From Bdellovibrio bacteriovorus str. Tiberius (GTDB lineage: Bacteria; Bdellovibrionota; Bdellovibrionia; Bdellovibrionales; Bdellovibrionaceae), in assembly GCF_000317895.1 (NCBI RefSeq), contig NC_019567.1:3596001-3660000 (forward strand): DNA of 64,000 nucleotides, read 5' to 3'. Below the pieces are notes generated by a model. That model was not told where the DNA came from and searched no databases. It was given only the letters and a program-made list of their open reading frames with translations. A program made the position numbers and the translations under genes. Below are positions 5,658-40,474 of this stretch, piece by piece; position 1 is the first letter of the stretch, and each line of letters opens with the position of its first letter.

Positions 5658-7691
5658 TTACCAGGCGCCGCTTTTTTGGAAGAAGGTGCCAGTGGTTTCA
5701 ACGATCGCTGAAGCATCCACTTTGTGTTTGCGGTAAAGGTCGGCCGCGGTGTAAGCGCTCTGACCGAATTCGCCGTGAACACCCAGGCTTTTCGCCTTGA
5801 ACGTCACATCAGCCGTCAACAATGCATGACACAGGATCTGGCCGAAGCCACCCAGCAATTGGTGATCTTCCACTGTGATCAAGTGGCCTTGAGTTTTCTC
5901 CAATACCGTCTTGAATGTCGCCACGTCCACATGATTCACACAAGCACAGTTCACAACAACCGCGCCCACACCTTTGACTTCAAGATCTTTAGCCGCCTGC
6001 AAAGCTTGGGGAACCAAAGAACCTGTTGTCGCAATCGCCACGGACTTCGTTTTCCCCGCGGTCGTGTCCGCCAAAACCTGCGCTTTACGCAAGTCATAGG
6101 AAGTACCGGCAACGTAAGTCTTAGGGAAGTTTTCACGACCCAGGAAGAACACCGCTGAATTTGGAACTTTGCCTTCCTTGCGGGCTTTGGCAAAGTTTTC
6201 AATCACGGAGTACATCAAAGCGTCTGCTTCTTCACTGCAAGACAAAGAATAAACATCCACATGCGGGATGGAAGAAACCATCGCCACATAACTTAGCGCC
6301 TGGTGGGAAGCCCCGTCCGCCGCATCCTGGAAGCCGGTGTGAGAAAACACCGCAATCACCGGAGCTTCAGACAGTGCACCCATCGTCAGTGGCAAAGCGC
6401 CTTTGGTCACACCAAACTGAGCAAAGGTATCCACAACCGGGATGTAACCCAGTTTGGACAAACCCGCCGCCGTGGAAACCATGTTCGATTCTGCGATACC
6501 CACGTCGAAGGAATCTTGAGGGAATTCTTTGCGGAAGCCCGCAACCCCAGTGGAACCCGGCAGATCCGAAGTCACACTCAGAACCGGGAAGTCGGCTTTG
6601 CGTGCACGCACCATCGCGGAAGAAATACCGACTTGAATTTTCTCGCCGGAATCTTTCACGCCGCTGGCTTTGATGTCCGCTTCCCATTTGTTCAGCTCAG
6701 CAATCCAGGTGTTGAATACGTCTGGCAAAGCTGCGCCACCCAGGATTTCACCCACGAAGGCTGCCAATTCAGAAGGGCTTTTCAGAGGGAAACCATGGCC
6801 ACCCGTCGCCGATTCAGCGGTTTTCTTGGTGCCGATACCTTTAACGGTCTTAGCGTGAATCACAACCGGTGCAATCGGATTGGCTTTCGCCTGCTCGATA
6901 GCATTAACAATAGTGTCGTAACACTTTTGCAGATCATTGCCTTCAGCAAGGTTGATCACATTCCAACCCAGATCTTTCAAAGAATTGAAAGTCGGAATCA
7001 TCGAGAAAGATTCCGCATCGATACGACCAGAAAGTTTCGTGTTGTTATCGCTGATGATCAAAACATAAGGACCCATCTTGCCAGTCTTAGCCAGTCCCGG
7101 AATCGCTGCGAAAGCCTCTTTCGCTTCACCTTCCATGCAGGCACCGTCAGAGATCGTGGTCACCGTCACGCGGTTCGTGCCAGAGATCGCCTCGCCCATC
7201 GCCACACCCTGAGTTTGCGGGAACGCAGAACCCAAAGGACCGTTGGAAATGAACACGCCTTCAGGGAAACAGTGAACTTCACCGTGGCCCGTCAGACCGC
7301 TTTCGATAGAGCGGAATTTTTTTAGGCTGTCCAAAGTCAGACCCGCCATTTTGTAATTGGCTTTCAAGGCATACAGACCGTTTTCACAGTGGCCAGCGTC
7401 GTTCACAATATGGAACAAGTCATACCACTGCTTGCCTTCGCGGCTGGAAACATCAAACACGTGACCATGCAGTGCGGACATAAGTTCCGCCAAAGCCGCA
7501 GGACCGCCATAGTGAGAAGCCGCGCCACCAAGGACGGCGTTCATATCCATCAAAGAAACAAGGGCGCGAGTCGCGTTAGGATCGGCCACTGGAATCTGAC
7601 GTCCGTCTTTGCTTTTAACAAAGCTTTTGAATTGAGGTTCTTGAGTAGGATTGCCTGCGAGTTTTGTTTTGATCTGAATGGGTTCTGTCAT
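5658..7691 (-). CDS. tkt: Transketolase
   Basis: Thiamine-diphosphate enzyme moving two-carbon units between pentose-phosphate sugars. The 677 residues carry an N-terminal ThDP/Mg half (SDGACMEGE in place of the usual GDG start, then ISDNNTKLSG and TVKGIGTKKT) and a pyrimidine-binding half (DLPGSTG, VGIAESNMVSTAAGL, DAADGASHQAL). The motifs depart somewhat from the classical TktA pattern (ASHQ rather than PTHQ), so it belongs to a divergent branch. It is divergent from the adenosine deaminase gene with a 37-base gap; ribose-phosphate metabolism links the two functionally. Confidence 0.85.
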   Translation of the reverse strand: MTEPIQIKTKLAGNPTQEPQFKSFVKSKDGRQIPVADPNATRALVSLMDMNAVLGGAASHYGGPAALAELMSALHGHVFDVSSREGKQWYDLFHIVNDAGHCENGLYALKANYKMAGLTLDSLKKFRSIESGLTGHGEVHCFPEGVFISNGPLGSAFPQTQGVAMGEAISGTNRVTVTTISDGACMEGEAKEAFAAIPGLAKTGKMGPYVLIISDNNTKLSGRIDAESFSMIPTFNSLKDLGWNVINLAEGNDLQKCYDTIVNAIEQAKANPIAPVVIHAKTVKGIGTKKTAESATGGHGFPLKSPSELAAFVGEILGGAALPDVFNTWIAELNKWEADIKASGVKDSGEKIQVGISSAMVRARKADFPVLSVTSDLPGSTGVAGFRKEFPQDSFDVGIAESNMVSTAAGLSKLGYIPVVDTFAQFGVTKGALPLTMGALSEAPVIAVFSHTGFQDAADGASHQALSYVAMVSSIPHVDVYSLSCSEEADALMYSVIENFAKARKEGKVPNSAVFFLGRENFPKTYVAGTSYDLRKAQVLADTTAGKTKSVAIATTGSLVPQALQAAKDLEVKGVGAVVVNCACVNHVDVATFKTVLEKTQGHLITVEDHQLLGGFGQILCHALLTADVTFKAKSLGVHGEFGQSAYTAADLYRKHKVDASAIVETTGTFFQKSGAW

Positions 7692-26118: not shown

Positions 26119-27163
26119 TGAGTTCATCTTCCTTCTGGCGGCAGACTTCCACCAGGATGTCATCCACGCTGACTTCACGCACGACACAGTGGCCGGGTTT
26201 TTTTAAGAAAACGAAACGCAGAACTTCGGACGAAGTCTTTTTCTTGTCACTTAAAAGCTGCTTTCTGAATTCACGCAAAACCGATTCTTTGGTTTGCAGC
26301 AATTCATCACGCACTGGCGACAGCAGATAACCCATCACCGGGGACAGCATCAGTTTTTCGTATTCAGCCGGTGTGATGATTTTTTTATGCAGGCTGAAAC
26401 GCAAAGCAAACTCCAGCCCGTAATTGATCGCCACTCCGTGCGGCAGTTCGTACTGGGTTTCCAGCACGTGACCCAAAGTGTGCCCCAGATTCAGGATATG
26501 GCGATGACCGGATTTTTCCTCCGGGTCTTTGGCGACAACCTTGTATTTGGCATCAATGGAACTGGAAAGATATTTCCACAGTATCGCCGCGTTGACTTCA
26601 TATTCTTTGGACAAATCCCGCCACAGCGGTCCCCCGGCAATCAAAGCGATCTTTAACAGTTCGCCAAAGCCTTCAAAGGCCCGGACATCCGGCTGAGCCA
26701 TCAACAGCGAACGGGATAGGACAATTTTGTCGGCAGGATAAAATGTACCGATCTGGTTTTTGGCAGAGCCCACATTCAAAGCCGTCTTTCCACCGTGAGC
26801 AGAATCAATCGCGGAAAGCCAGGTGCTAGGCATGTGCACCAAACGCACGCCACGCTTCAGGATGCTGGCAACAAAGCCACCAAAATCCCCGACGCTGCCG
26901 CCACCGGCCACCACCACCGTCAAACGACGGCTGGAAGCGCCTTCACACAGCTTCACAATCTTGGTGATATGTTCTGGAAAGTTTTGAACGGATTTAAGGG
27001 CTTCCCCGGCCTTCACCGAATAACGCAGCGGAAACTGCGCCATCCATTTTTTGAAGGCTTTGGATTTACGAGGCAGGATCTCGTCGTAGATCAACAACAG
27101 CTCTTCCCCCAGGTCAGCGGGACGAGGCAGTTCCGTAGTGAAGAGCAGTGCGCTTTTTTTCAT
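26111..27163 (-). CDS. aroB: 3-dehydroquinate synthase AroB
   Basis: Second enzyme of the shikimate pathway, NAD- and metal-dependent. The 350 residues show the nucleotide loop GGGSVGDFGGFVAS, MPSTWLSAIDSAHGGKTALN, and the metal-binding HRHILNLGHTLGHVLE. ATG shares one base with the stop of the upstream coiled-coil gene (TAATG), so the two may be coupled. It begins the overlapping series aroB-aroA-aroKDE-aroC. Confidence 0.95.
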   Translation of the reverse strand: MKKSALLFTTELPRPADLGEELLLIYDEILPRKSKAFKKWMAQFPLRYSVKAGEALKSVQNFPEHITKIVKLCEGASSRRLTVVVAGGGSVGDFGGFVASILKRGVRLVHMPSTWLSAIDSAHGGKTALNVGSAKNQIGTFYPADKIVLSRSLLMAQPDVRAFEGFGELLKIALIAGGPLWRDLSKEYEVNAAILWKYLSSSIDAKYKVVAKDPEEKSGHRHILNLGHTLGHVLETQYELPHGVAINYGLEFALRFSLHKKIITPAEYEKLMLSPVMGYLLSPVRDELLQTKESVLREFRKQLLSDKKKTSSEVLRFVFLKKPGHCVVREVSVDDILVEVCRQKEDELNG

Positions 27164-27579
27164 TATTTTTCTTCTGACAGGTGGGCTTTGGCTTTGCCGT
27201 AGGAATCAGAGATTGCATCCCACGCTTTGCTCATGCCGTTTTTCATTTCGCCCCAGGCTTTGCCTGAGCTTTTTTTCATCTTCGCCAGATCTTTCTTCAT
27301 TTCTTCCTGCTTTTTTTCCAAAGCTTTGATCTGGTCGTTGTACTCGGCTTTTGCTTCGCCGGATTTCTTGGAGGCAGCTTCTTTCATCTCGGCGATCTCT
27401 TTTTTCATTTTCGCCAGATTTTCTTCCATGTCTTTTTGGAACTGCTCTTTTTGTTCTTTGGTGTAATCAGCCGCAGCGGTCGCTGCTTCAGCGGTTTTGG
27501 TTTTCACTTCGTCAGCGGAAGTGGCAAAGGACTGGGATACCAGGGACAACACTACAAAAGCAGCAGCAATAGGACGCAT
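27163..27579 (-). CDS. Periplasmic lysine/glutamate-rich coiled-coil protein
   Basis: A 138-residue protein with a signal peptide (AAAFVVLSLVSQSFA) and then an almost continuous charged helix: KEQFQKDMEENLAKMKKEI and KALEKKQEEMKKDLAKMKK are typical heptad patterns. No known domain was recognised; such proteins can be periplasmic chaperones or structural. AAGGAG lies before ATG. Its stop overlaps the aroB start, although a metabolic link is not evident. Confidence 0.75.
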   Translation of the reverse strand: MRPIAAAFVVLSLVSQSFATSADEVKTKTAEAATAAADYTKEQKEQFQKDMEENLAKMKKEIAEMKEAASKKSGEAKAEYNDQIKALEKKQEEMKKDLAKMKKSSGKAWGEMKNGMSKAWDAISDSYGKAKAHLSEEK

Positions 27580-27620
27580 AAAAGGTCTCCTTACGACGGA
27601 GACCAGTTTACAACGGGGCC

Positions 27621-27932
27621 TTATTTTACTTCAACAATATTGAGCTGATGCTGCTCGGCCTTGACGCTGACAGGCTTCTGATGTTTCAGACTTTCTTCCA
27701 GCTTTTTGCGGTAGGTCTCAAAGTTGATGACATCACGATCCAGATAATAGGTTCCGGCAGTTTTCACAAAGACCACCAGCAGCCCGTTGCCATCGGCACG
27801 GATGCTTTTTACGGTGTCTGCGGTGATGGTGGAGTGTTCACTTGCGACCAGACGGATCGACGGACCTGCCTGCGCAAGATTCAAGCCTGTAAAAACGGGT
27901 GCCACGAAAGCCACCACAACAAGCCATCTCAT
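27621..27932 (-). CDS. Small exported protein of unknown function
   Basis: A 103-residue protein with signal peptide RWLVVVAFVAPVFTGLNLAQA. The mature 80 residues look like a small beta domain (SIRLVASEHSTITADTV, LLVVFVKTAGTYYLD) followed by a helix. GGGAGG lies before ATG. It is 41 bases upstream of the coiled-coil gene on the same strand and may be cotranscribed. Family not recognised. Confidence 0.72.
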   Translation of the reverse strand: MRWLVVVAFVAPVFTGLNLAQAGPSIRLVASEHSTITADTVKSIRADGNGLLVVFVKTAGTYYLDRDVINFETYRKKLEESLKHQKPVSVKAEQHQLNIVEVK

Positions 27933-28064
27933 AAATCCTCCCTGTGAATAATTGAGACCTTCTTATATCTTAGCCAAGGTCCCCAGCGAAGACTAGAGCT
28001 TTTACCCTTGCAGGCTTGATATAAAACACCGGGATGGATCTATTTTGGACGCCTCCCGAAGGAG

Positions 28065-28754
28065 TTAAACCAGGTTCCAGTTGATTTCGCCAATACCCTT
28101 GGATTTCAGATAGGCATTGGTTTTGGAGAAAGGCTTGGTCCCAAAGAACCCGCGGTGAGCGGACAACGGCGACGGATGCACGGCCTCAAGCACCAGATGT
28201 TTTTTGCGATCCACGAAGGACGCTTTTTTCTGCGCGTAAGAACCCCACAGGATGAACACCAGATTTTCTTTTTCCTCGTTCAGCACGTGGATGATCTTGT
28301 CGGTGAACTCTTCCCAGCCTTTACCCTGATGGGCAGCAGCTTTGCCGTCCTCGACTGTCAGCACAGCATTCAGCAACAGAACACCTTCCTGGGCCCACTT
28401 AGTCAGTGAACCGCTTTGCGGAATGGTCGCACCCACGTCGTCGTGAAGCTCTTTAAAGATGTTTCTAAGCGACGGCGGAAAACGAACGCCGTCTTGTACA
28501 GAAAAACAAAGTCCATGCGCCTGGCCGGGGCCGTGATAAGGATCCTGCCCGACGATCACCACTTTCACTTTGTCAAAAGGAGTCAGATTCATCGCAGCGA
28601 AATAGTCATCACCACACGGATAAATTGTCTTACCCGCTTTGTATTCAGCAGATAAAAATTTATTCAGCTTCTGCATGCGCTCGGTTTCAAATTCGAGGTG
28701 AAGATGCTGCTTCCAAGATGAGTTTAGTTTGATTTCTGAGTTAATATTTTCCAT
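28065..28754 (-). CDS. ung: Uracil-DNA glycosylase
   Basis: Removes uracil from DNA in base excision repair. Family 1 signatures are complete: GQDPYHGPGQAHGLCFSV with the catalytic Asp, LLLNAVLTVEDG, LWGSYAQKK and HPSPLSAHRGFFGT with the catalytic His. I chose ATG 28754, giving 229 residues, the usual length; the frame extends 33 codons upstream without a sensible ribosome binding site. The Shine-Dalgarno for the chosen start is weak (GAG). Confidence 0.93.
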   Translation of the reverse strand: MENINSEIKLNSSWKQHLHLEFETERMQKLNKFLSAEYKAGKTIYPCGDDYFAAMNLTPFDKVKVVIVGQDPYHGPGQAHGLCFSVQDGVRFPPSLRNIFKELHDDVGATIPQSGSLTKWAQEGVLLLNAVLTVEDGKAAAHQGKGWEEFTDKIIHVLNEEKENLVFILWGSYAQKKASFVDRKKHLVLEAVHPSPLSAHRGFFGTKPFSKTNAYLKSKGIGEINWNLV

Positions 28755-28902
28755 CTCAATCTGACACAAGTCCTTGGTCCAGCTTCGGGATTCTAATGCA
28801 AACCTATTCGATTTCAAATTATTTTTTCGGTGCCAGTTTTCTTGACCAGACAAAATTCGACCCCATTGTTACACTATAACTACGAGGAAAAGGAGGCCGC
28901 CT

Positions 28903-29304
28903 ATGACGACCCTTCTCAACCCCACCATTGAGCTTATTGAGCAAAATCCTGAGGTTAAGTCCTTTATCTACCAGCAGATCGCAGAGTTTGAACACTTTGT
29001 GACTCCACAGACTGTGGTTGCGGTAGTCGCCCGGGATCCCCGAAAACTTGCGCTCCAGTATGAAACAGACGGGCGCGAATTCACCCGCGAGGGCCTGAAG
29101 AAACTGTATCGTATTGCCATCGTCTTAAACGAGGGCGGCGCGAAGGCAGAGGCCGAAGGCGTCCACGAGGACATCTTTGAAGCCATTAGGCTTGCCAAAG
29201 ACAACCTTATGCAAAAGTTAGTTGCGATTCAGGATTCTGTCGTCAGTCAGCAGGACCGAATCATCGAAATCAATCATTACTTGCAACATCCGGTTCTTCA
29301 TTAA
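28903..29304 (+). CDS. Conserved-looking cytoplasmic protein of unknown function
   Basis: A 133-residue soluble protein with a good start (AAAAGGAGG before ATG) and a TATAAC -10-like box about 30 bases upstream. It has no signal peptide; the middle looks like a mixed alpha/beta fold (VVAVVARDPRKLALQYETDG) followed by two helices. Family not recognised. Its 3' end is duplicated at 30538-30605, on the far side of the RelA/SpoT-like gene, which suggests that the original downstream neighbour was the aldo/keto reductase at 30635. Confidence 0.75.
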   Translation: MTTLLNPTIELIEQNPEVKSFIYQQIAEFEHFVTPQTVVAVVARDPRKLALQYETDGREFTREGLKKLYRIAIVLNEGGAKAEAEGVHEDIFEAIRLAKDNLMQKLVAIQDSVVSQQDRIIEINHYLQHPVLH

Positions 29305-29331
29305 GATAATGGGGCTTCAGCAAGGAGGCCC
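29237..29331 (+). repeat. Left copy of a 91-base direct repeat flanking the RelA/SpoT-like gene
   Basis: Aligns without gaps to 30538-30632 (offset 1301). By eye about 70 of 91 positions match, and the last 32 (from ATTAAGATAATGGGG) differ at one only. This copy covers the last 22 codons of the gene at 28903, its stop, and an orphan AAGGAGG that no longer precedes a start codon. Confidence 0.85.
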
Positions 29332-29341
29332 CACAAACACA

Positions 29342-30379
29342 TCAGAAAAATTTTCCCATCATAATCAGGGAAAGATTCTGTACCAGTGTTTTTGTATCCA
29401 TGAAATAGTTCGGATAACTCATTTCTAGTTTTTTCAAATCTCCCGTATTTACCAAAACCACATTGATCAATGTGTCTTCAAAGTATTTTCTTTCAAGATC
29501 CAAATACGCCTGGACGGCGGCATCAAACTGACTCGCGCCATAAGTTTCGAGCGAGATTGTGTTCTCCCGCGAATTAAGCAGAATTAAACTATAGTGACCT
29601 TTTCTACCCTTCGAAGAACTCTTTGAAATCGTTTTATAAGCAGCAGTGTATACGCTGAGGTTTTCGATCACGTGCAGCTCACGGATTTCCTTTTGAACTT
29701 TCTCTATCAGTTCAAGCTTTGACATTTCCTTATGAGCTTTTAGAATCGGCTTACTTTCCTTGATCGCAAACACTGAACTCAGTAAAGCGAAAAACTCCAA
29801 CCACCTGCGATTGCCTTGTCCCGACTTGAACGAACTGTTCTGAAGAGTTCCAAACACCTCGACACCCGTCGCCCAGATATGCTGCAACTGGGATCTGAAT
29901 TGCAATTCCAAAAAAAGACTCGGGGTCTTAGACAATTTGTAAACCAAGTGAATGCTTCGGTAACCATCCGGCTTTGGGTTTTCAATATAGTCATCAAGAG
30001 AAAACAGCGCATGCTTAGACTTGGATCTCTTGTACAAACCGAGCAACTCATACACTTCTTCGGTAGATTCCAAAATCGCTCTTAAGCCGCCAATATCCTG
30101 CATGGCGGATAATCTCATTGTTTTGTGATTGGAAAGCTTAAGCAGGATGGAAGGCGTTCTTTTCAACCGTTGTGCAGCAATCGCTCGATCGCTGATTTTC
30201 TGAATTCGCTGTCGCAGTACCGCCGCAAAAGAATCCAAGGGAATCGCATGATAGGCGCGCCAACTTGATAGCACTTCCAAAGCACTTGCAATTTCCTCAT
30301 CCGAGCCGGATTTGCTCTTTAGTAGTTCGCCCGCTCGATCAATTTTTGCTTTGCTATACTCGAGTTCAACAGATCCCAC
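29342..30379 (-). CDS. RelA/SpoT-domain alarmone synthetase-like protein without hydrolase domain
   Basis: Predicted pyrophosphokinase making (p)ppGpp or a related product. The synthetase domain spans about 60-175: RLKRTPSILLK, Asp95 in MQDIGGLRA, KPDGYRSIHLVY (137-147) and Glu158 in ELQFRSQLQHIWA, so catalytic residues are retained. There is no HD hydrolase, TGS or ACT domain. A 150-residue C-terminal region of unknown role ends with YPNYFMDTKTL. It starts at GTG with a weak ribosome binding site. It sits alone between direct repeats in AT-rich DNA. Stand-alone synthetases include stress enzymes and toxic or antiphage variants; which applies here cannot be told from sequence. Confidence 0.85.
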   Translation of the reverse strand: MGSVELEYSKAKIDRAGELLKSKSGSDEEIASALEVLSSWRAYHAIPLDSFAAVLRQRIQKISDRAIAAQRLKRTPSILLKLSNHKTMRLSAMQDIGGLRAILESTEEVYELLGLYKRSKSKHALFSLDDYIENPKPDGYRSIHLVYKLSKTPSLFLELQFRSQLQHIWATGVEVFGTLQNSSFKSGQGNRRWLEFFALLSSVFAIKESKPILKAHKEMSKLELIEKVQKEIRELHVIENLSVYTAAYKTISKSSSKGRKGHYSLILLNSRENTISLETYGASQFDAAVQAYLDLERKYFEDTLINVVLVNTGDLKKLEMSYPNYFMDTKTLVQNLSLIMMGKFF

Positions 30380-30388
30380 AAAATTCCA

Positions 30389-30511
30389 TTTTTTAAGAGT
30401 TTAAATCTGTAAGTTGTTGATTTTACTATAACTCGACTTTAGCTCAAACTCTAGAGCAATCTCTATAAATTAGCTATTTTTAAGAATTTAAACGTGTAAG
30501 TTGTTGATTTT
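30389..30511. repeat. Two tandem 35-base repeats upstream of the RelA/SpoT-like gene
   Basis: 30389-30424 and 30477-30511 share TTTTTAAGA-TTTAAA and GTAAGTTGTTGATTTT with three mismatches, 88 bases apart. They lie in the AT-rich leader of the minus-strand synthetase gene, the nearer copy 10 bases from its start. Possible duplicated promoter or operator. Confidence 0.75.
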
Positions 30512-30537
30512 GCTTATCTTTGAATTTTCATCTCTAC

Positions 30538-30632
30538 TCCTCGTCAACCAGCACTGCCCTGCCCGCAAAATCAATCAATCCTTGCAACATGCAATTCCCA
30601 ATTAAGATAATGGGGCTTCTGCAAGGAGGCCC
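30538..30632 (+). pseudogene. Duplicate 3' end of the 28903 gene with intact ribosome binding site (right repeat)
   Basis: In frame this reads VNQHCPARKINQSLQHAIPN then stop, against VSQQDRIIEINHYLQHPVLH at the end of the gene at 28903. No start codon belongs to it. The trailing AAGGAGG is used by the aldo/keto reductase at 30635. This is best read as the remnant left when the synthetase segment entered the junction. Confidence 0.75.
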
Positions 30633-30634
30633 TG

Positions 30635-31591
30635 ATGTTCAATCCCAATATGCCTTACCGCAGCGTTGGCCGTTGCGGTCTTAAAATCGGCACCTATTCT
30701 CTGGGTGGATGGACCACCTTTGGTGGCACCATCAAAGACTTCACTTCCGTTCGCAGCATTCTGCGCCTGGCTTACGAAGCCGGAATCAATTTCTTCGACA
30801 TCGCCGACATTTATGCCAAAGGCGAATCCGAACGCATCATGGGCGGAGCTTTAAAAGATTTCCCGCGCCACGAGCTGGTGATTTCCTCGAAAGTCTTCTG
30901 GCCGATGAGTGAAGACATCAACGACAAGGGACTTTCCCGCAAACACATTCTGGAATCCGTGAACAAGTCATTGCAACGAATCGGCACGGACTATCTGGAT
31001 ATTTATTTCTGCCACCGCTATGACCCGGAAACCCCGGTGGAAGAAACCGTGCGCATCATGGATGACCTCATTCATCACGGAAAGATTCTGTACTGGGGGA
31101 CCAGCGAATGGACCGCCGAGCAAATTCAGGAAGCCATGGATGTCTGCGACAAGGGCGGATACTACAAACCGCAAGTCGAACAACCCCAGTACAATCTGTT
31201 AGTGCGCGACAAGTTTGAAACCAACGTGCAACCCAAAGCCCAACAACACGGCATGGGCCTGGTCACCTGGTCTCCGTTAGCATCTGGCATGCTGACCGGA
31301 AAATACGACAAAGGCGTCAGCGAAGGCCGCCTGTCGCGTATCGACTGGCTGAAGGACACCTTCTATACCGAAAAGAACAGTCAGCGCGTGTGGGAACTTA
31401 AAGGCATCGCCGACAAACTGGAATGCAGCCGCACGCAGTTGGCACTGGCTTGGACCGCCGCCCAACCGGGCGTCAGCAGCGTGATCTTAGGTGCGACCAG
31501 CATCGAACAGTTGCAGGAAAACCTTGGGGCCTTAAAAGTCGAAATCACACCCGAGATCGACAAAGACATTAAAAAGATTTTCGCTTACTAA
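30635..31591 (+). CDS. Aldo/keto reductase, Kv-beta-like
   Basis: NADPH-dependent reductase of aldehydes or ketones. The 318-residue TIM barrel shows FDIADIYAKGESE with the catalytic Asp/Tyr, VISSKVF with the Lys, and FCHRYDPETPVEETVRIMDDL. WGTSEWTAEQI is characteristic of potassium-channel beta-subunit-like and YghZ-like reductases. The C-terminal cofactor segment VSSVILGATSIEQLQENL is present. The GGAGG ribosome binding site lies inside the right copy of the direct repeat. Natural substrate unknown. Confidence 0.9.
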   Translation: MFNPNMPYRSVGRCGLKIGTYSLGGWTTFGGTIKDFTSVRSILRLAYEAGINFFDIADIYAKGESERIMGGALKDFPRHELVISSKVFWPMSEDINDKGLSRKHILESVNKSLQRIGTDYLDIYFCHRYDPETPVEETVRIMDDLIHHGKILYWGTSEWTAEQIQEAMDVCDKGGYYKPQVEQPQYNLLVRDKFETNVQPKAQQHGMGLVTWSPLASGMLTGKYDKGVSEGRLSRIDWLKDTFYTEKNSQRVWELKGIADKLECSRTQLALAWTAAQPGVSSVILGATSIEQLQENLGALKVEITPEIDKDIKKIFAY

Positions 31592-31603
31592 TGAGACACA
31601 CCC

Positions 31604-31637
31604 AAAGGCTGCCGGAAATATTCCCGCAGCCTTTTTC
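31604..31637 (+). terminator. Terminator after aldo/keto reductase
   Basis: AAGGCTGC and GG pair with CC and GCAGCCTT around an A/T loop, followed by TTTTT. Confidence 0.85.
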
Positions 31638-31716
31638 CTTCACTGCTATTTGACTGTACCCGCCCTGATAGATCATCGAAAATGAAAAATCTAAATGCCC
31701 CCTCGAGGAGTCTTGA

Positions 31717-32082
31717 TTGAAAGAAACAGTTCTCATCGCCCTGCTGACGTTAGCTCTAACCTCTTGTTCAAATGTACCAACACGCGAAGAGCGCTTAGAG
31801 GCTACGGAAAAAGCAACAAATCGCACTCTTGATCGAAATCAGGCCCTTTTCCAAGAATGCATTCAAGATGCAGTAAAGAGATCGCCGGGCCTGGATGGAG
31901 GGGCAACGCTTGTTTGGATTCAAAATGAAGATGGTTTTGTTAAAAATCCGCGTGTTCGCGATATGAACTTCAAGGACCCTGCATTTGAGGACTGCATTAT
32001 CTCCAAAATCAAGGCGATGAAGTTCCCGCCCTCCGCGGAAGACTCCCGAACCAAGGTCAGCCTAGAACTAATCGTTAAATAA
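31717..32082 (+). CDS. Small lipoprotein with AgmX/TonB-C-like domain
   Basis: A 121-residue lipoprotein: signal LIALLTLALTSC with Cys at 17, then a helical stretch and a C-terminal alpha/beta domain. The pattern of paired cysteines (FQECIQDAV and EDCIISKIKAMKFP) and the KFPPS ending resemble the C-terminal domain of AgmX/PglI-type gliding proteins and TonB-like folds; this is from memory and moderate. It starts at TTG with GAGGAG upstream. Single-gene unit. Confidence 0.75.
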   Translation: MKETVLIALLTLALTSCSNVPTREERLEATEKATNRTLDRNQALFQECIQDAVKRSPGLDGGATLVWIQNEDGFVKNPRVRDMNFKDPAFEDCIISKIKAMKFPPSAEDSRTKVSLELIVK

Positions 32083-32135
32083 GCATGGAAAGACTTTAGA
32101 CATAGTGGGAACCACGGCATCTTGCAACAGCAAAA

Positions 32136-32156
32136 AATGGGGCCAATGGCCCCATT
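32136..32156. terminator. Hairpin between convergent genes
   Basis: AATGGGGCC pairs with GGCCCCATT around AAT. An A run precedes it, so it should terminate the minus-strand gene at 32186 better than the plus-strand one. Confidence 0.75.
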
Positions 32157-32185
32157 CTAAAGCTATCTTTAGCCGTTACTAAGCA

Positions 32186-33868
32186 TTACGGTACAATTAA
32201 AAAGACCATACTTCCTTGGACGCCATCATAGCCATCCGCACTGGATGCGAGATGATCCAGATAATGGTATGTGTACGGATACAGGTCTGTGCCCGGTGGG
32301 ATTTCAACAGATACATACTGTACTTGATTCCAATCAGAGGGACTAAATGTTAGTACAACCGGCAACCCGTTCTGTCCGTTGACTCGCAAAATCGTCGTGT
32401 CGATTGTGACTTGGACAACACCGATAGGCTCGGCACTCAAAGAAACACCATACTGAGTTGGTGTTCCATCCAATGACAAATCCGCCTGTGAGGTATCGAA
32501 AAGAATGCTACCATAATCATCATTCATGACGTGAACATACACATCAGGAACACGTACGCCTTCATAGTCTCCACCAGATGCTGTATGAGTAATCTTAATA
32601 GCCTCAGTTCCGTCTACTATCGAATTATCAGCGGTAGTAAATAAAATTTGCTGAGGTGTGCTCCAATTACTAGGAGTAAATGTCAGAGACATCTGCGCGG
32701 ATCGTCCATTTTTCGTCGAGAAGGTCACACGCGAACTTGGTGAGCTCGCAACAATTGTTACGTTCGCAGTCGGCTCTGTCGTAAGGGCTACAGAGTAAGA
32801 TCCACTTGAATTTTCATAGGCGTAAATATTGGATTGATCAATATAAACCGGCGAAATTTCAACGACTTCAATAGTCAAATTCGCGGTTGCAACAAAAATT
32901 TTCATATCAGCATAAACGGCATAGAAGGCCGAGATAATAGCCGTTAGATCATCAACCTCCCGTTGGTAATATGCAATCAGTGCTGTGTTTGTTTCTGCAT
33001 CACGTAGCTGTTCGTTCTTTGCTTTCATTAATGCGGCTTTATCAATTGCATCCAGGAGCGAATTAGCGTCTCGCTTATTTCGGATAAATAAGGACGCTGA
33101 AATCGCGTGGGAGCCAACTGTTAGCATTGAACCATCAATACTTGATTGATAATTAAGATCAGAATTCTTAACAAGGACCATAGGACTAGCCCCCAGTGTT
33201 GCCTCTACTTCTGATACAAATTCATAGGTCTCCGTCATTTCAGACGGATTAACTTGAAATGTTACAGTTCCACTTTCCCCGACAACAAATACATCATCAA
33301 CTTTATCCGTTGAAATCTGCAACGGCGAAGACAGTCTATGCCCTTTCTTTACTTGGGTCGGGTAAACATAGAGCTCCTTCGTCTCCAACAAAGTTCGCCC
33401 CTGCTGCAGTTGAGTCTGCAAGCCCAATATTAATGCTTCGTTTTCGGAAATTGCCTGAAGCAACAGTGCTTTCTTCTCGGGATCAGTCTCCAAGCTATGC
33501 TTTTGACTTAAAAGGATATTTTCCTTTTGAAGAAGAGCAATACTGGAGTTTAAATTTAAAGCCGATGCACGATTCTGAAGGTAGGCCTTTACTTCCCAGT
33601 GATATGGGCTTGTATCGGGCAGAACTGGCGTAACCACAGCAAATTCAGTGTCAGAAAATTTTGTTAACTTAATGGCATCCGTATTCCAAGTCGCCTCCAA
33701 GTGAACTTCAGTCGCTGGATCGCTTGGGCTTGTTCTTACCGAGGCAAGAAGAACCGCTCTCTCCCCGACCACGTATTGTGTTTTGCCACTTTTAAGTTCA
33801 ATAAACTGCGGATCTGCGAATGCCGCGGTTGCAAGGAATGTCATGATCGCAAAAATTGTTTTTTTCAT
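32186..33868 (-). CDS. Large exported protein with coiled coil and Calx-beta-like repeats
   Basis: A 560-residue protein with signal peptide TIFAIMTFLATAAFA. It has an N-terminal beta domain (about 20-105), a coiled coil (about 105-170, with LETDPEKKALLLQAISENEA), a middle region, and repeats from about 340 that look like Calx-beta or cadherin-like strands (TEPTANVTIVASSPSSRV, FTPSNWSTPQQILFTTADN, and again FSPSDWNQVQYVSVEIP). The GGAGAG site before ATG 33868 overlaps the stop of the upstream gene, so they form an operon. Surface adhesin or structural role is likely; function unproven. Base composition is AT-richer than the neighbours. Confidence 0.8.
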   Translation of the reverse strand: MKKTIFAIMTFLATAAFADPQFIELKSGKTQYVVGERAVLLASVRTSPSDPATEVHLEATWNTDAIKLTKFSDTEFAVVTPVLPDTSPYHWEVKAYLQNRASALNLNSSIALLQKENILLSQKHSLETDPEKKALLLQAISENEALILGLQTQLQQGRTLLETKELYVYPTQVKKGHRLSSPLQISTDKVDDVFVVGESGTVTFQVNPSEMTETYEFVSEVEATLGASPMVLVKNSDLNYQSSIDGSMLTVGSHAISASLFIRNKRDANSLLDAIDKAALMKAKNEQLRDAETNTALIAYYQREVDDLTAIISAFYAVYADMKIFVATANLTIEVVEISPVYIDQSNIYAYENSSGSYSVALTTEPTANVTIVASSPSSRVTFSTKNGRSAQMSLTFTPSNWSTPQQILFTTADNSIVDGTEAIKITHTASGGDYEGVRVPDVYVHVMNDDYGSILFDTSQADLSLDGTPTQYGVSLSAEPIGVVQVTIDTTILRVNGQNGLPVVLTFSPSDWNQVQYVSVEIPPGTDLYPYTYHYLDHLASSADGYDGVQGSMVFLIVP

Positions 33869-33879
33869 CTTCAACTCTC

Positions 33880-36132
33880 CTAAGGGATAATCCCGTTCCC
33901 TTTCAGCGGATATAGAATTGGTGTTTGATATCCTCTTAATTTAAATGCAAGCGACCCTTCACAAAGCCCGTCAATATATGGCTTAAAATATGTCCGTATA
34001 TCTATGGAACTGGAGCTAATCTTGTCATTATTGCCGACAGAGAATGGGAAGCCTGGCCAGAATTCTCCGTCTGCCTCAAAGCATCCCTGCAAATCTGCGT
34101 CGACATCTTCGACTTCAGTCAGCCACTGCCCGGTAGATAGAGAGTAGAAGTCCTGCATAATGTTGATAACAAGGGGCGCAGAGGTTGCTCCTTCCTCAAC
34201 GTCACCAAAATCCAATAACTTTGAAGGATTGTATAGGCTTGGCAGTTTCTGAGTTTCAACCACTGTAGAAACAGAATTATTCGCCAGAGAACTGAAATTC
34301 CACGTCAACATAGCTGAGGATGAATTTCGTACCCCAAAATTCCCATTCTGCTTCACTTTAAGATAAACATCTGCACTGCCCTCAGCCGGCACAACCACGC
34401 CGCTACCCATGTCCATCTCGAAGACACCACTAGTACCATCGATATACGTAAAGTCTGGTGGCGTAGATACATAGATTTCAAGCGATGATCTATTTCTAAG
34501 TTCAAATTTTGTAAGGCTATCCTCGTCATAGACCCCATTTACGGGAACCACTCCAGAGTTTGCGATCATCTCCACGTTAGTTTCACCCATCCATTGATGT
34601 TCGTTGTAAACGGTATGCATAGTGAGCGTGGGCTCTGAACCGGAATATAAGCTGAGGTCAATTTTTGTAGCAAAGGCCTGCGGAGTCTTCATAACGACGG
34701 GAATACTTGAGTAAAGTCCGTCTTGCTTCCAATAACTAATAAACTGAAAGCTTAAACAACTGTTCCTAAGAATAGTCCCACGATTGGAACCGATTAAAAG
34801 GACAATGTCTTTTAGGTAAACCTGATAGTCGCCATCTTGCTCAAGGTTATTACATATTTTGAACATCCCGACATACGGCTTGTCCTTAGTAAAAGTACCA
34901 ACGATTGAACTAGGAACAACGCTGATTCCTGCTTTTGGACCGATGGTAACTGTAGTCCAAGATGGTTTACTTTGCGTAGTACCACTGTAGACAACCAGAG
35001 ATACTACGTATGTTCCCTCAGTTATTGCCATGAAGGTAGGAGTAGCTGTTCCGTAGCCATTCGTAATTTGCCCCTCGGCAGGGTCTGCATTAACGGGACG
35101 AGATTGTACACTCCAATCGTAGAACAAGGTCTCTCCGGGGGCCCCGTAAGACATGGAGCCATCCAACATCACCCCAACCTCAGAGGTGGTTGTCTTGGGA
35201 TACCCGGCAAATGCGACGGGCCCAGAGCTACCAACAGAAGAAATGTCCCCTGCGTAATAAGCATTGTGCAATATCGTATTCACTGATTGACCGGCAACTT
35301 GCTTATTTAGAATAATGTCATAGATACCTTTGGACAGACCCGGCATAGTGAATGTGATCTCTCCATCCCCCACAACCATTTGGGACTCTTCGATGACAGT
35401 CTCCCCAATCTGCAAAGATGTCGTACCTAGCAGATTTGCACCACTCAGCACTACCTCAGTTCCGCCAGAAACAGAACCCGCATCAGGCACACACCCCGTC
35501 AGATTCGGATATGTCGTATTAGGCGCATCTTGCTTCAATACAAGAAGCGTATCTGTTTTCTGGGTGATTGGACGTTTGGAGGCTTCGATCATATTTTCTA
35601 AATCAACTTTTTGCGCCAATTTAGATTCCAATACGGCTTGCAACTGACCTTTTTTTACTGGATCGGTCTCTCTTTGATGCTCGGCAGTCAACTTAGCAAT
35701 TTCCGCCTGAAGCGCCAAAAGAGACTCTTGGAGCGTCTTATTGGCTTCGATGTCTTCGAGATAGCCGCTAACCTCGACAGCCAACTTACCTTCTTGATGA
35801 ACAGTAATTGGAAGTGAAGTCCACAATGTCCCGGCTCGGCGAGAAAGCTTCAGTTTCTGACCGCCAACTACTGCAGTCACACCCGATTTGATTCTTTTAT
35901 TAGACTCAAAATCTGTTGATAGCTCGATGAGAACTGTGACCTTGTCTCCTTGCTTCGGCTGCGCGGGAGAATATCGAATCTTCGCAATGGTAAAATTGTC
36001 TTGAGTATTGAACTTTGAGATCGCATAAGACACTTTTTCAGTCGACTGCGAATAAATTCTTTTTGTTGGCGCCTTTGCATAGCTCGAACCACTATAAAGT
36101 AGCAAAGACGTCGCAATGAGTCCCTTCAGCAT
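33880..36132 (-). CDS. Large exported protein with IPT/TIG, PKD-like and HYDIN-like domains
   Basis: A 750-residue protein with signal peptide GLIATSLLLYSGSSYA. Its first 170 residues repeat the plan of the next gene: a beta domain followed by a coiled coil (RETDPVKKGQLQAVLESK). Then come an IPT/TIG domain (CVPDAGSVSGGTEVVLSGANL), a PKD-like domain (FAGYPKTTTSEVGVMLDGS, then YDWSVQSRP), and a C-terminal ASPM/HYDIN-type beta domain (LLDFGDVEEGATSAPLVI). GGAGGAAGTG precedes ATG 36132. The likely role is extracellular binding. It is divergent from the Rhs gene across 201 bases. Confidence 0.8.
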   Translation of the reverse strand: MLKGLIATSLLLYSGSSYAKAPTKRIYSQSTEKVSYAISKFNTQDNFTIAKIRYSPAQPKQGDKVTVLIELSTDFESNKRIKSGVTAVVGGQKLKLSRRAGTLWTSLPITVHQEGKLAVEVSGYLEDIEANKTLQESLLALQAEIAKLTAEHQRETDPVKKGQLQAVLESKLAQKVDLENMIEASKRPITQKTDTLLVLKQDAPNTTYPNLTGCVPDAGSVSGGTEVVLSGANLLGTTSLQIGETVIEESQMVVGDGEITFTMPGLSKGIYDIILNKQVAGQSVNTILHNAYYAGDISSVGSSGPVAFAGYPKTTTSEVGVMLDGSMSYGAPGETLFYDWSVQSRPVNADPAEGQITNGYGTATPTFMAITEGTYVVSLVVYSGTTQSKPSWTTVTIGPKAGISVVPSSIVGTFTKDKPYVGMFKICNNLEQDGDYQVYLKDIVLLIGSNRGTILRNSCLSFQFISYWKQDGLYSSIPVVMKTPQAFATKIDLSLYSGSEPTLTMHTVYNEHQWMGETNVEMIANSGVVPVNGVYDEDSLTKFELRNRSSLEIYVSTPPDFTYIDGTSGVFEMDMGSGVVVPAEGSADVYLKVKQNGNFGVRNSSSAMLTWNFSSLANNSVSTVVETQKLPSLYNPSKLLDFGDVEEGATSAPLVINIMQDFYSLSTGQWLTEVEDVDADLQGCFEADGEFWPGFPFSVGNNDKISSSSIDIRTYFKPYIDGLCEGSLAFKLRGYQTPILYPLKGNGIIP

Positions 36133-36333
36133 CACTTCCTCCATAAAACAATTACTGATTGCCTACGATTCGTCATGAAACAGAATTGCGTCAAATGATT
36201 TTATGTTTATCAAGAAAACTTGTTTACATGACGCAGGACCATCTACTAGTTCCATTAAAGAGTCTTGAGCCAGCAAACAAAAGTAACTACTGTTTACCTT
36301 TGAAAAACAGATTCGTATTTATGAGGACGTCTT

Positions 36334-39300
36334 ATGATGAAATGGATTTCAATTATTTTTGTGACTTCACTTCTTTACTGCAATCACGCTCTTGCAAAAG
36401 AACTATTCATCCGGGAAGTGGAAACGACCACTAGTAAAGGATTGGTTCTTTCCCCGAAAAGTAACATCTATTTTGGATCCATGTTTATCAATCAGGAAAT
36501 TGAAGTAACAATGATCTGGGAAGTCATTGGGGTTGGAACGGCTCAATTTACAAACTTCCAGATTACGGGCTCTGATAGATTCACTATTAAAAGCAATTCC
36601 TGTGATGGGGATGTCCCAGGAGGCTCTACATGCGGATATGTTCTTCTATTCTCATCTTTATCCCCTCTCGATGATGGCCTTTTTAATGCGACCTTTTCAT
36701 TCAAATTTCATGGGGTTGATAACAGCGGTCCAGTCACTAAGGACCATATATACCAACTAAGTGGAAAAATTAAGAACTACCAAGAACCACCCAACAACCC
36801 CAAATGCAACGAAGGCTCGATCATTAAAGTTTCCAGTCAGTCTGTGAGTGAGTTAGTCCCCGTCGTGGGCGCACCGTTTTCTATGTACTACTCCTCTGAC
36901 CACGCCCCACAGTTCGTAGTCCCGTACACCAACGTCAATCACCTGTCTTCCTTTAATCCACACGGATGGACCGTCTCGCTAGTACATCACTACAGCGTAT
37001 CACAGCAAAAACTCTTCACCGGAACCGGTCAAATAAAACACGTCACTGCATATACAGACTCAGCTGGAAACTACAACGTTGTTGAGGGAGATGAAGTCTA
37101 TGTTTTCAATACATCGGGACGACATATTCGCACACGCAGCTCATTAACCGGATACACCAAGTACACGTTCAACTATAGCTCGGGTTATCTTTCAGAAATC
37201 GTAGATTCATTTGGCAACACCAGCACCTTCACACGATCCAATGGAGTATTAAGCGAAATTCAGGCACCCTACGGTCAAGTAACCAACATAACGGTGAATC
37301 TTGACAATCTTATTTCTTCAATTACCAATCCGAACAACGAGACGTATTCCATAACTTACCATAGCAATACGGACCTCATTTCTACCTTTACAACACCAAG
37401 CGGCAGACGAACAGAATTCACATTCAATGCATCTGGAAAGTTAACCTTAGACAAAGGCGCTGCAGGAAACTCACAATCCTTTTCCGCGGTCCCAAGTGAT
37501 TATGTGGAGTACATTGTAAAGAAAAGTGCATTGAACCGAGCTACAGAGTTCAGCTCTGAGAGACTAGCAGCCGGTAAGCACAAACAAACAGAATTAACAC
37601 CTTACGGCTACCACACGACGACAGTCGAAAATACCGACAACTCTACAGATACAATCACGCCCCATTATCGAGAACACACAAAAACAAAGTACGATGAGCG
37701 ATTTGGAGCCGCGCAAAAACGAACATATCTGCAGATATTCACCACAAATGAAAAGGAGAATCGCACAGAAATCAATCGTACGATTTCCCCATGGCCTCTT
37801 ACAGAGCCGTTCGGTTACAATACTATTACGACCTCTACCAATAAAGATGGCGCGATTTACACTGAAGTCTTCAACAAGCAGAACCTGGAGTACACCACCA
37901 CATCACCAAATGGAGCAACCTATAAAACCAAAATAAATCAATATGAGTTACCTATTCAGACTCAACTAGGAAGCGACACCCCAGTTACCATGGTATATGA
38001 CAACCAAGGAAGACTTACTAACACGTATCAAGGTAGCGCGAACTCAACCAGCTATACTTACAGTTTAAGCGGATACCTCGAGTCGATCACTAATGCACGC
38101 AACGAAACTACTACATTTTCTTACGACAGTACAGGCCGTATTACATCAGAAACCACTCCGGACAACAGAACCACTTTGTATTCATACGATGCTGACGGAA
38201 ACCAAACTGGCATCACCCCCCCAGGCAGACCAATTCATCTTTTCAGCTTCAATGAATTTGGCCTAATGGAATCGTACGTTCCGCCCGCCCCCCTAGGTGG
38301 CGGCTACAAGAATACTCAATATCAATATAACCTAGACAAGCAGCTTACCGCGATCATTCGACCGGATGGCCAAAGGTTGGAATATATTTATGGGGATACG
38401 GACGGACTTCTAAAAGAGATAGTAACCCCGTCAGGCAAGCAGTCGTATACGTACGAACCAAACTCGGACAGAATCAAAAGCGCCTTGTCTATCTATGGAG
38501 TACAAACTTCATTTGCTTATGGCGGAGTCAATACTACTAGCGAGACCCAATTTAGTCCTTTCATCGGTACAACAAAAATCCTCTTTGACTACAACAAGAA
38601 GAACCAAAGAAACGCCCGAATAATTGAAGGAAATAAATTTAAAACTAATCGAATCAACACATCCTATCGTCTCGACGGTAAGATTGCACAGGTTGGAGAT
38701 CTCACGATTACCTACGATCAATCATCTGGTCGCCCTATTGGGACTAGTCTGCACAATATTAAGGAAACACTTTCTTATGATACCTATGGAAATATTCACA
38801 CGTACGAAGCAAGGCTAGAAATTCCAAACCTGCCAGTAAAAACTCTATATTCATACGCCCTAGAAAGGGACCTAGCATTCAGAATCGTCGGAAAAAGTGA
38901 AACTATACAAGGTGTAACAACCCAATACAGCTATACCTATGACAGTGCAGGCAGATTGATCGAAGTCAAAAAGAACGGCCGCGTCACCAGCACCTATATC
39001 TATGACAGCAATGGGAACCGTACATCAGGATCCCATAGTGGCACCCCCTTCACCGCGACATTTGACGATCAAGATCGAATGATCTCATACAATGGCCAGC
39101 TCTTTAAATACACAGCCAATGGAGAACTTTCTTCCGCCGAATCCGCCATTGGGAAAATTTCCCAATTCGTTCACGATTCCTTTGGGCAATTGAAGGCAGT
39201 GCACACATCTATTGGATCTAACCTTAAATATTCTCTTGATTTCTACGGAAGAAGAATTGCATCACATAAAGATGGTAAGCTAGTCTATGAACGTATATAT

Positions 39301-40017
39301 GAAGGCCGACATAGAATTGCTGTCGACTATACTCACCACAGCCAAACAGCGAAAGAATTTGTCTACCTAAATTCCCCAAATTCTCCAGAATACTTAATCA
39401 TAGATGGTAAAATATATAAGTTCCTCAAGGATCACCTTGGCTCACCTCGACTGATCGTGGAGGCAATTCTTGGAACAATTGCGCAACGCCTTGATTATAC
39501 GGAGTTAGGAAAAATCACTTTCGACTCAAATCAAGACTTCCAACCTATTGGTTTTGCCGGGGGACTAGTCGATCACGACACTAAGCTTGTTAGGTTTGGC
39601 GCAAGAGATTATGATCCAGAGGTTGGTCGGTGGACGAGCAAGGACCCGATTCTATTTAAAGGCGGTGACACGAATTTGTTTGGGTATGTGGAAAACGATC
39701 CCGTGAACTTCGCTGATGCGAGCGGCACTGGGCCAATCTTATCGGGCTTATGTCATTTGGGGTTGCCTATTGTCGCGGACTCAATAGGCAAGCAGGTTGC
39801 GTTGAAAATCACTGAGGATATACAATCCTTAGAGAAAGAACTCAGCTCCATTGATCAGCTTTGCCCCAAAGACGGAGGCGCTAGGAAGCTTGATCTCGAA
39901 TCCACCCTCTCAAAACTGCGTATGGCACAAGCGGCGCTTCCTGCAATTATGACAGGGGCGGTGAATTATGGCGGAAAAAGTATTTGTGACCTTTTGAAAT
40001 TCGCACCAGGAATATAA
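36334..40017 (+). CDS. Exported Rhs/YD-repeat protein with variable C-terminal tip
   Basis: A 1227-residue protein with a Sec signal (ISIIFVTSLLYCNHALA). Residues about 35-145 form a HYDIN-like beta domain, then come many YD repeats (for example TTFSYDSTGRITSETTPDN, YTYDSAGRLIEVKKNGRV, YIYDSNGNRTSG). The Rhs core ends with RFGARDYDPEVGRWTSKDP, then LFGYVENDPVNFADASG. The last 90 residues, after this conserved end, are unrelated, contain four Cys and look like a toxin tip. The usual autocleavage DPxG is only partly kept. Sec export and the lack of vgrG or PAAR argue against type VI delivery. GAGGACG precedes ATG. Confidence 0.9.
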   Translation: MMKWISIIFVTSLLYCNHALAKELFIREVETTTSKGLVLSPKSNIYFGSMFINQEIEVTMIWEVIGVGTAQFTNFQITGSDRFTIKSNSCDGDVPGGSTCGYVLLFSSLSPLDDGLFNATFSFKFHGVDNSGPVTKDHIYQLSGKIKNYQEPPNNPKCNEGSIIKVSSQSVSELVPVVGAPFSMYYSSDHAPQFVVPYTNVNHLSSFNPHGWTVSLVHHYSVSQQKLFTGTGQIKHVTAYTDSAGNYNVVEGDEVYVFNTSGRHIRTRSSLTGYTKYTFNYSSGYLSEIVDSFGNTSTFTRSNGVLSEIQAPYGQVTNITVNLDNLISSITNPNNETYSITYHSNTDLISTFTTPSGRRTEFTFNASGKLTLDKGAAGNSQSFSAVPSDYVEYIVKKSALNRATEFSSERLAAGKHKQTELTPYGYHTTTVENTDNSTDTITPHYREHTKTKYDERFGAAQKRTYLQIFTTNEKENRTEINRTISPWPLTEPFGYNTITTSTNKDGAIYTEVFNKQNLEYTTTSPNGATYKTKINQYELPIQTQLGSDTPVTMVYDNQGRLTNTYQGSANSTSYTYSLSGYLESITNARNETTTFSYDSTGRITSETTPDNRTTLYSYDADGNQTGITPPGRPIHLFSFNEFGLMESYVPPAPLGGGYKNTQYQYNLDKQLTAIIRPDGQRLEYIYGDTDGLLKEIVTPSGKQSYTYEPNSDRIKSALSIYGVQTSFAYGGVNTTSETQFSPFIGTTKILFDYNKKNQRNARIIEGNKFKTNRINTSYRLDGKIAQVGDLTITYDQSSGRPIGTSLHNIKETLSYDTYGNIHTYEARLEIPNLPVKTLYSYALERDLAFRIVGKSETIQGVTTQYSYTYDSAGRLIEVKKNGRVTSTYIYDSNGNRTSGSHSGTPFTATFDDQDRMISYNGQLFKYTANGELSSAESAIGKISQFVHDSFGQLKAVHTSIGSNLKYSLDFYGRRIASHKDGKLVYERIYEGRHRIAVDYTHHSQTAKEFVYLNSPNSPEYLIIDGKIYKFLKDHLGSPRLIVEAILGTIAQRLDYTELGKITFDSNQDFQPIGFAGGLVDHDTKLVRFGARDYDPEVGRWTSKDPILFKGGDTNLFGYVENDPVNFADASGTGPILSGLCHLGLPIVADSIGKQVALKITEDIQSLEKELSSIDQLCPKDGGARKLDLESTLSKLRMAQAALPAIMTGAVNYGGKSICDLLKFAPGI

Positions 40018-40028
40018 GGATTTTTAGG

Positions 40029-40334
40029 ATGAAAAATATTGTTCCATCAGGGCCAAAGAAGGATTTACCGCAAGGTCGCGCTGATATTATCGGAAGTATG
40101 TGTGGGGTCCTTGGTGGAGCATCACTTATTTACTTTTGCCTATTATCTTATTTCTTCGGTTCCCCTCAAGTAGAGCAACTTATTATTTGCCAATCTGAAT
40201 CTGGCAACTGCCGAAAGATATCTATGATATGTTTAGCTCTAAGTTTTGTGATTGGGATTGTCTGTATAATTATTTCCATAAGACTTAAAAAAAATTCTGA
40301 GCGAGAACACCGAGATGATTTCATAATAAGATAG
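40029..40334 (+). CDS. Two-helix membrane protein, candidate immunity protein
   Basis: A 101-residue protein 11 bases after the Rhs gene. It has two hydrophobic helices (GVLGGASLIYFCLLSYFF and ISMICLALSFVIGIVCIIIS) with a short cysteine-containing loop between them and charged ends. Small membrane proteins directly after Rhs genes are commonly immunity partners for the C-terminal toxin; the assignment here rests on position and shape only. AT-rich like the Rhs gene. Confidence 0.65.
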   Translation: MKNIVPSGPKKDLPQGRADIIGSMCGVLGGASLIYFCLLSYFFGSPQVEQLIICQSESGNCRKISMICLALSFVIGIVCIIISIRLKKNSEREHRDDFIIR

Positions 40335-40474
40335 TCACGGCTTGTTCGGAGCCCCTGAAGAACTATTTGAATTCAACGGAACATGAAAACGTCCGACTGA
40401 AGGTCGCCACAGTGCTCTTATCGCTGGATTGCTTATTTGTATTCTTCAAGAAAAATAGAACTATTCAGACTGTC

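Follow-up and report, generated by a model that had tools for sequence, protein, structure and literature searches.

A lone RelA/SpoT-type gene stands between two copies of a direct repeat in the chromosome of Bdellovibrio bacteriovorus str. Tiberius, raising the questions of what this gene encodes and how it came to be there. The Tiberius genome paper reported one Tiberius-only gene with relA/spoT homology, bdt3408, and proposed that it alters ppGpp (PMC3539863). Since 2012, the literature has carried bdt3408 as a possible modifier of ppGpp that might account for the odd growth of this strain. We analyzed a 64,000-nt stretch of the chromosome (hereafter, the window; contig NC_019567.1, positions 3,596,001 to 3,660,000), and all coordinates given below are those of the window. 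Based on its uniqueness and rough position, the RelA/SpoT-type gene in the window is evidently bdt3408.

The only convincing gene between the repeats (29342 to 30379, minus strand, GTG start) encodes a protein of 345 amino acids. Its N-terminal toxSYNTH domain matched PF04607 (RelA_SpoT; residues 70 to 174, E = 8.6e-18), and its C-terminal part is a regulatory domain of the pseudo-zinc-finger type fused in the same chain. When the protein was compared with solved structures by phmmer, CapRel-SJ46 (7ztb and 9erv) ranked first (residues 4 to 332, E = 1.8e-34), whereas small alarmone synthetases in the same search reached only 1.7e-8. An AlphaFold2 model (pLDDT 84, pTM 0.84) was likewise closest to 7ztb (Z = 24.1 over 277 residues) and 9erv (Z = 23.2 over 276 residues), with the next structural family at Z = 14.3 over 171 residues; the structural alignment with CapRel-SJ46 covered residues 5 to 342, and SAS structures aligned to the model as well. 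The protein also matched the whole PADLOC profile PDC-S33 (positions 1 to 342 of 349, E = 5e-110), a single-gene phage defence candidate for which the library gives no mechanism and which, judging from this match, appears tied to CapRel. In CapRel-SJ46, the catalytic residue of the G-loop is Y155, ATP is coordinated by R79 and R116, and Y352 and Y355 (the YXXY motif) block the active site until a phage capsid protein binds the C-terminal domain; the opened enzyme pyrophosphorylates tRNA and so inhibits translation (PMC9712102). R79, R116, Y155, Y352, and Y355 correspond to R71, R100, Y140, Y322, and Y325 of the Tiberius protein, all identical in every homologue aligned, and the YXXY neutralisation motif reads Y322-P-N-Y325 (YPNY, residues 322 to 325).

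The Tiberius protein thus shares with the CapRel of Salmonella phage SJ46 its length, domain order, fold, and single open reading frame, as well as the catalytic tyrosine, both ATP-coordinating arginines, and the autoinhibitory YXXY motif. It differs in sequence (approximately 31% identity), in its location on the chromosome of a predatory bacterium rather than in a prophage, and in a locus where the gene lies alone between duplicated gene ends behind a leader doublet. We conclude that, by sequence, motifs, and fold, the protein is a CapRel and not a housekeeping alarmone synthetase. By analogy with CapRel-SJ46, we infer that it may sense phages and pyrophosphorylate tRNA, and its likely role would be defence against phages of the predator. 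In the resting cell, the YPNY motif of the C-terminal domain would occupy the ATP site of the synthetase and keep the enzyme off; a phage protein binding that domain would open the enzyme, tRNA ends would be pyrophosphorylated, translation would halt, and the infection would abort. As expected for a sensor, the C-terminal domain is the part most diverged from CapRel-SJ46, too far for the phage trigger to be predicted. A search for a near-identical phage source of the gene found none. A literature search returned little on phage defence in Bdellovibrio.

The 2012 proposal that bdt3408 is a laterally acquired alarmone (ppGpp) synthetase, altering the ppGpp level and aiding prey-independent growth, has to be set against these findings. 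The gene does have RelA/SpoT homology, it is present only in Tiberius of the two strains compared, and the strain has an unusual growth mode (PMC3539863). However, the relationship to CapRel, a translation-inhibiting tRNA pyrophosphokinase (PMC9712102), runs the full length of the protein and includes the C-terminal autoinhibitory domain and the YXXY motif, and scores against GTP diphosphokinase families fell far under the NCBIfam cut-offs (NF053588, 38.9 versus 320 bits; TIGR00691, 41.1 versus 499 bits). We regard a role as ppGpp synthetase as very unlikely. The preliminary description of this DNA, made from its letters, had spoken of an alarmone-synthetase-like gene standing alone: the single gene stands, but a tRNA-modifying fused toxin-antitoxin fits better than an alarmone synthetase. 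Its remark that stand-alone synthetases include antiphage enzymes proved apt and can now be narrowed, from the phmmer and structural matches, to CapRel.

The segment bearing capRel is bounded by a gap-free, two-copy direct repeat of 92 nt (29240 to 29331 and 30541 to 30632, plus strand; 77% identity, spacing 1,301 bp), the longest two-copy family that a repeat search detected within 27000 to 33000. This agrees with the pair described beforehand by eye (29237 to 29331 and 30538 to 30632, offset 1301, about 70 of 91 positions). The firm core of the pair is 65 nt long (86% identity, E = 2e-15 by BLAST), and in a shuffle test the flanking repeat scored 50 against a null maximum of 15. The outer 27 nt or so match at only about 15 of 28 positions, so the two copies may be non-homologous there. 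The left copy includes the native 3′ end and stop of an S30AE/HPF-like gene (28903 to 29304, plus strand), the target whose end is duplicated, together with a promoter and a ribosome-binding site that are orphaned. Against PF02482 the product of this gene scored 22.4 bits, just below the curated Pfam gathering cut-off of 23.7, and we therefore name it S30AE-like only. The right copy comprises a degenerate remnant of the gene end and the working promoter and ribosome-binding site of an aldo/keto reductase (30635 to 31591, plus strand; PF00248), which lies downstream of this copy only. As had been claimed, both copies contain the 3′ end of the 28903 to 29304 gene, TAA, and AAGGAGG, and the right copy alone serves a gene.

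To place this arrangement in the genus, we compared Tiberius (G000; 3,988,594 bp, one contig) with 23 other genomes, among them HD100 (G005; 3,782,950 bp). Both the S30AE-like gene and the aldo/keto reductase were found in most of these genomes, whereas a capRel-type gene was found in none (0/23). In HD100 and G023 the two neighbours lie 32 to 33 nt apart and share one repeat copy, forming an intact empty junction; further members of the genus likewise show a short S30AE-like/reductase junction. The 1.3-kb segment of Tiberius is therefore an insertion, as the preliminary description had supposed, and the single-repeat empty site is what it had suggested looking for in relatives. The capRel gene also departs in composition from its two neighbours (G+C 43% versus 50 to 52%; GC3 47% versus 58 to 66%), and its nearest homologues (69 to 79% identity) belong to other genera and families of the phylum, at unrelated loci. 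We conclude that Tiberius gained the gene recently by horizontal transfer. In the bins beside the insert, divergence from HD100 and G023 was 0.5 to 7% (nearest full bins, 0.5% and 2.5%), compared with 7 to 8% for the region. Because flank divergence is not raised above the regional level, no diverged tract was imported along with the insert, and an imported recombination tract was rejected.

The conserved tail of the repeat has an explanation within the repeat itself. A promoter, TTGCAA-N18-GATAAT, lies in the right copy at 30582 to 30611 (plus strand). This element was present in 13/13 genus genomes in which the reductase starts 31 to 37 nt past the S30AE-like gene and in 0/10 in which the reductase is farther off or missing, indicating that the promoter of the reductase lies partly within the end of the gene before it. 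In the right copy the −35 and −10 elements, the spacer length, and the ribosome-binding site are retained, and changes fall elsewhere; of its former coding part, 21/66 positions are changed (8, 7, and 6 at the three codon positions). Selection holding the reductase promoter and ribosome-binding site is thus sufficient to keep the tail nearly identical, and no attachment site is needed. That the last 32 positions are nearly identical was correctly noted beforehand; the tail is largely explained by selection on promoter and ribosome-binding site, and sequence similarity alone does not prove an attachment site. At this locus a duplicated gene end can persist since the promoter of the neighbour sits in it. 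The left copy retains an orphan, promoter-like TTGCAA-N18-GATAAT (29281 to 29310, plus strand) facing into capRel from behind its 3′ end; antisense transcription of capRel from this pair is a predicted possibility and could damp expression of a potentially toxic gene.

The two copies also suggest where the insert joined the chromosome. They share an identical 19-nt core, ATTAAGATAATGGGGCTTC (29300 to 29318 and 30601 to 30619, plus strand), and a core search of the whole Tiberius genome, with 3 mismatches allowed, found no third occurrence. The base following the core is A in the left copy, but the right copy shares T at this position with HD100 and G023. On the 5′ side of ATTAAG it is the left copy that is native (matching HD100 and G023) and the right copy that is not. 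Read from these junctions, the simplest crossover site would be inside ATTAAGATAATGGGGCTTC. A circular joint of the unit is then predicted to consist of the right-copy arm, the core ATTAAGATAATGGGGCTTC, A-GCAAGGAGG, and the capRel 3′ flank. At fourfold sites, Tiberius and HD100 diverge by 24%, giving a neutral expectation of about 12% for the Tiberius branch. The 21/66 changes in the right copy exceed neutral decay since the HD100 split (P about 2e-5 at 12%), whereas the 8 changes in its inner 38 nt are compatible with decay at this rate (P = 0.08). The right copy was probably already diverged on arrival, an excess that is nonsignificant if homology is confined to the inner 38 nt. The S30AE gene of another species was considered as the source of the right copy and rejected: no member of the genus outdid the strain's own lineage (best match, 45/66).

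To determine how widely this arrangement recurs, we surveyed 369 genomes of the phylum Bdellovibrionota and found a capRel gene in 28, with decayed copies in some (G027, G121, G149, and G237), which suggests rapid gain and loss. Among the decayed genes, that of G027 (L113) has an internal deletion and those of G121 (L110) and G149 (L142) have in-frame stops. Flanking repeats were sought by comparing the 700 nt preceding each gene with the 160 nt following it, a score of at least 20 being taken as strong. Strong flanking direct repeats were detected at 7/22 testable capRel loci (G000, G058, G115, G149, G184, G174, and G104) and were absent at the other 15. By the same test, repeats flanked 0/125 other genes in the same stretches (Fisher P = 7e-7) and 0/141 further Tiberius genes (0/266 control genes in all), and 4/467 random positions. 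In six of the seven loci, capRel is the sole gene within the unit, whose length is 1,301 bp in G000, 1,273 bp in G058, 1,410 bp in G115, 1,458 bp in G149, 1,250 bp in G184, and 1,238 bp in G174. The repeats range from 17 to 140 nt, and four of the seven hold the 3′ end of a gene or tRNA-Ser: in G000, G058, and G149 it is the adjacent gene whose end is repeated, and in G115 the tRNA-Ser 3′ end plus flank. In addition, the capRel stop lies 7 bp (G064) and 15 bp (G062) from a tRNA-Ser 3′ end or its remnant. This pattern of a lone capRel between short duplicated pieces of DNA suggests that the immune gene may travel alone.

Caution is due for some of these repeats. That of G104 is dispersed and may be repetitive DNA, and those of G115 and G174 may include repetitive DNA. 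In G104 (L107), multiple copies of the palindromic GGTGCCAGCTTACTT...AAGTAAGCTGGCACC lie on both sides of capRel; this element is REP-like. The G115 locus (L108) has a direct repeat of 74 to 103 nt (4811 to 4913 and 6221 to 6323 of that locus); partial 3′ ends of tRNA-Ser also occur there several times, an arrangement that resembles tandem integration into a single tRNA-Ser gene. By eye, we noted a tyrosine recombinase near capRel in L073, a recombinase fragment in L070 (CALQIT020000097.1), and conjugation genes in L069. Among the capRel loci, an empty site is demonstrated at that of Tiberius alone; in the available genomes, the genes bordering the G058 and G174 loci are either non-syntenic or too diverged for this comparison.

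Upstream of capRel, the unit carries a second, shorter repeat. Two leader copies lie on the minus strand, copy 1 at 30477 to 30514, which is 87 bp upstream of copy 2 at 30390 to 30427, and the extension of copy 2 reaches the capRel start codon. Such a leader doublet (direct copies of 38 to 54 nt, 85 to 88 bp apart) was found in G000, G062, G085, G064, G081, and G047, so that five relatives belonging to other genera share its sequence and spacing ahead of capRel; in all six loci the second copy ends at or near the capRel start codon. One further doublet, in G149, has a spacing of 119 bp. Leader copies resemble each other somewhat more within a locus than between loci (0.80 versus 0.70, P = 0.02). 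Two alternative roles were rejected. The leader repeats are not dispersed mobile ends, as the Tiberius genome contains just the two copies, both at the capRel locus, the third match having 3 mismatches; nor did they behave as a structured RNA, with no folding excess (z = 0.12) and only a subthreshold chance match in Rfam. From its sequence and position, we think that the doublet may be an operator or promoter pair.

Together, these observations favor the reading that the 1.3-kb insert arrived by horizontal transfer as a unit of one gene, encoding a CapRel-type fused toxin-antitoxin and no recombinase, and that such a unit integrates at gene ends; we consider this reading probable. Three other histories would also place a gene between repeats. 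Under one, capRel is ancestral and was lost from all sampled relatives through recombination between the repeats. Direct repeats are able to delete intervening DNA, but this history demands loss on every branch in 23/23 genomes of the same genus, and neither the atypical composition nor the position of the nearest homologues, in other genera and another family (76 to 79% identity) at unrelated loci, agrees with it; we regard it as virtually untenable. Somewhat unlikely, in our judgment, is that a related donor with capRel at this very junction supplied a linear fragment, which entered by ordinary recombination, whether homologous or illegitimate; the duplication would then have been a one-off event in the donor, and capRel no mobile unit. 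The right copy is more diverged than decay in situ predicts, as if derived from a donor, no recombinase gene lies beside capRel, and the repeat, holding both gene end and promoter, had to stay in any case. Yet flank divergence is not raised, no sampled relative has capRel at this junction, and in other families flanking repeats are again present, at sites unrelated to this one.

The remaining history is a target-site duplication, in which some element made a staggered cut of at least 65 bp and the right copy then decayed in place except for its promoter. As this history expects, it is precisely the −35, the −10, and the ribosome-binding site that survive in the right copy amid changes elsewhere, and the inner 38 nt of that copy are compatible with decay at about 12%. 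However, 21/66 changes are too many for the expected branch, repeats varying from 17 to 140 nt among loci are unlike the product of a fixed staggered cut, and neither terminal inverted repeats nor a transposase was seen; we consider this history unlikely. The single-gene unit thus has two chief rivals, the linear fragment transferred once and the long target-site duplication, and the CapRel identity is unaffected by either.

If the single-gene unit is taken as the working model, the question becomes what moved it. The preliminary description had stated that no integrase is present, which holds: the interval between the repeats encodes no recombinase, capRel being its only gene. Seven tyrosine-recombinase matches occur elsewhere in the Tiberius genome. 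Lacking its own recombinase, the unit is not an autonomous element; a cis-mobilizable element needs none. We infer that it may have been moved by a recombinase supplied in trans. The unit would carry its own leader, two repeats of 38 to 50 nt reaching up to the start codon, and recombination within or near the 19-nt core would have linked it to the S30AE-like gene at the 3′ end. The joining would have left a second copy of the gene end, keeping the promoter of the next gene alive. More broadly, and tentatively, with the odds somewhat against it, capRel in Bdellovibrionota may travel on a minimal mobile unit of about 1.2 to 1.5 kb that consists of the gene, the leader doublet, and a short homology to gene ends, and that uses the recombinases of others.

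Cis-mobilizable elements are remnants of integrative elements that have kept their attachment sites and lost the recombinase. The capRel unit resembles them in that direct repeats at the 3′ end of a gene enclose a cargo lacking a recombinase, but differs in containing one gene only, the same gene in several families, and in that no resident integrative element is known for its sites. It also resembles the single-gene insertions at tRNAs described for Tiberius and HD100 in being strain specific, single gene, and in the same genome, but its target is the end of a protein gene, and the paper names other genes (PMC3539863). A scan of 340 kb of the Tiberius genome for repeats downstream of tRNAs yielded none that was convincing (14 nt matching at 15 kb and 16 nt matching at 159 bp), and no relevant paper came up when the literature was searched for solitary defence genes at the ends of tRNAs. 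Neither CapRel itself nor the listing of bdt3408, which dates from 2012, is new; the present analysis adds the CapRel identity of bdt3408, the proof by empty site, the promoter within the repeat, and a lone-gene architecture that recurs. Should the unit prove mobile, it would represent a novel route by which one immune gene spreads among predatory bacteria without a mobility gene. The comparison of capRel loci offers the testable idea that immune systems consisting of one gene spread by themselves, flanked by duplicated ends of genes.

Near the capRel locus, a second segment of approximately 8.4 kb (32083 to 40474) is also missing from HD100 and G023, whose alignments end at 32082/32083 and restart at 40475. 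This segment carries large secreted-looking proteins, the biggest of which is a YD-repeat (Rhs-like) protein of 1,227 amino acids (36334 to 40017).
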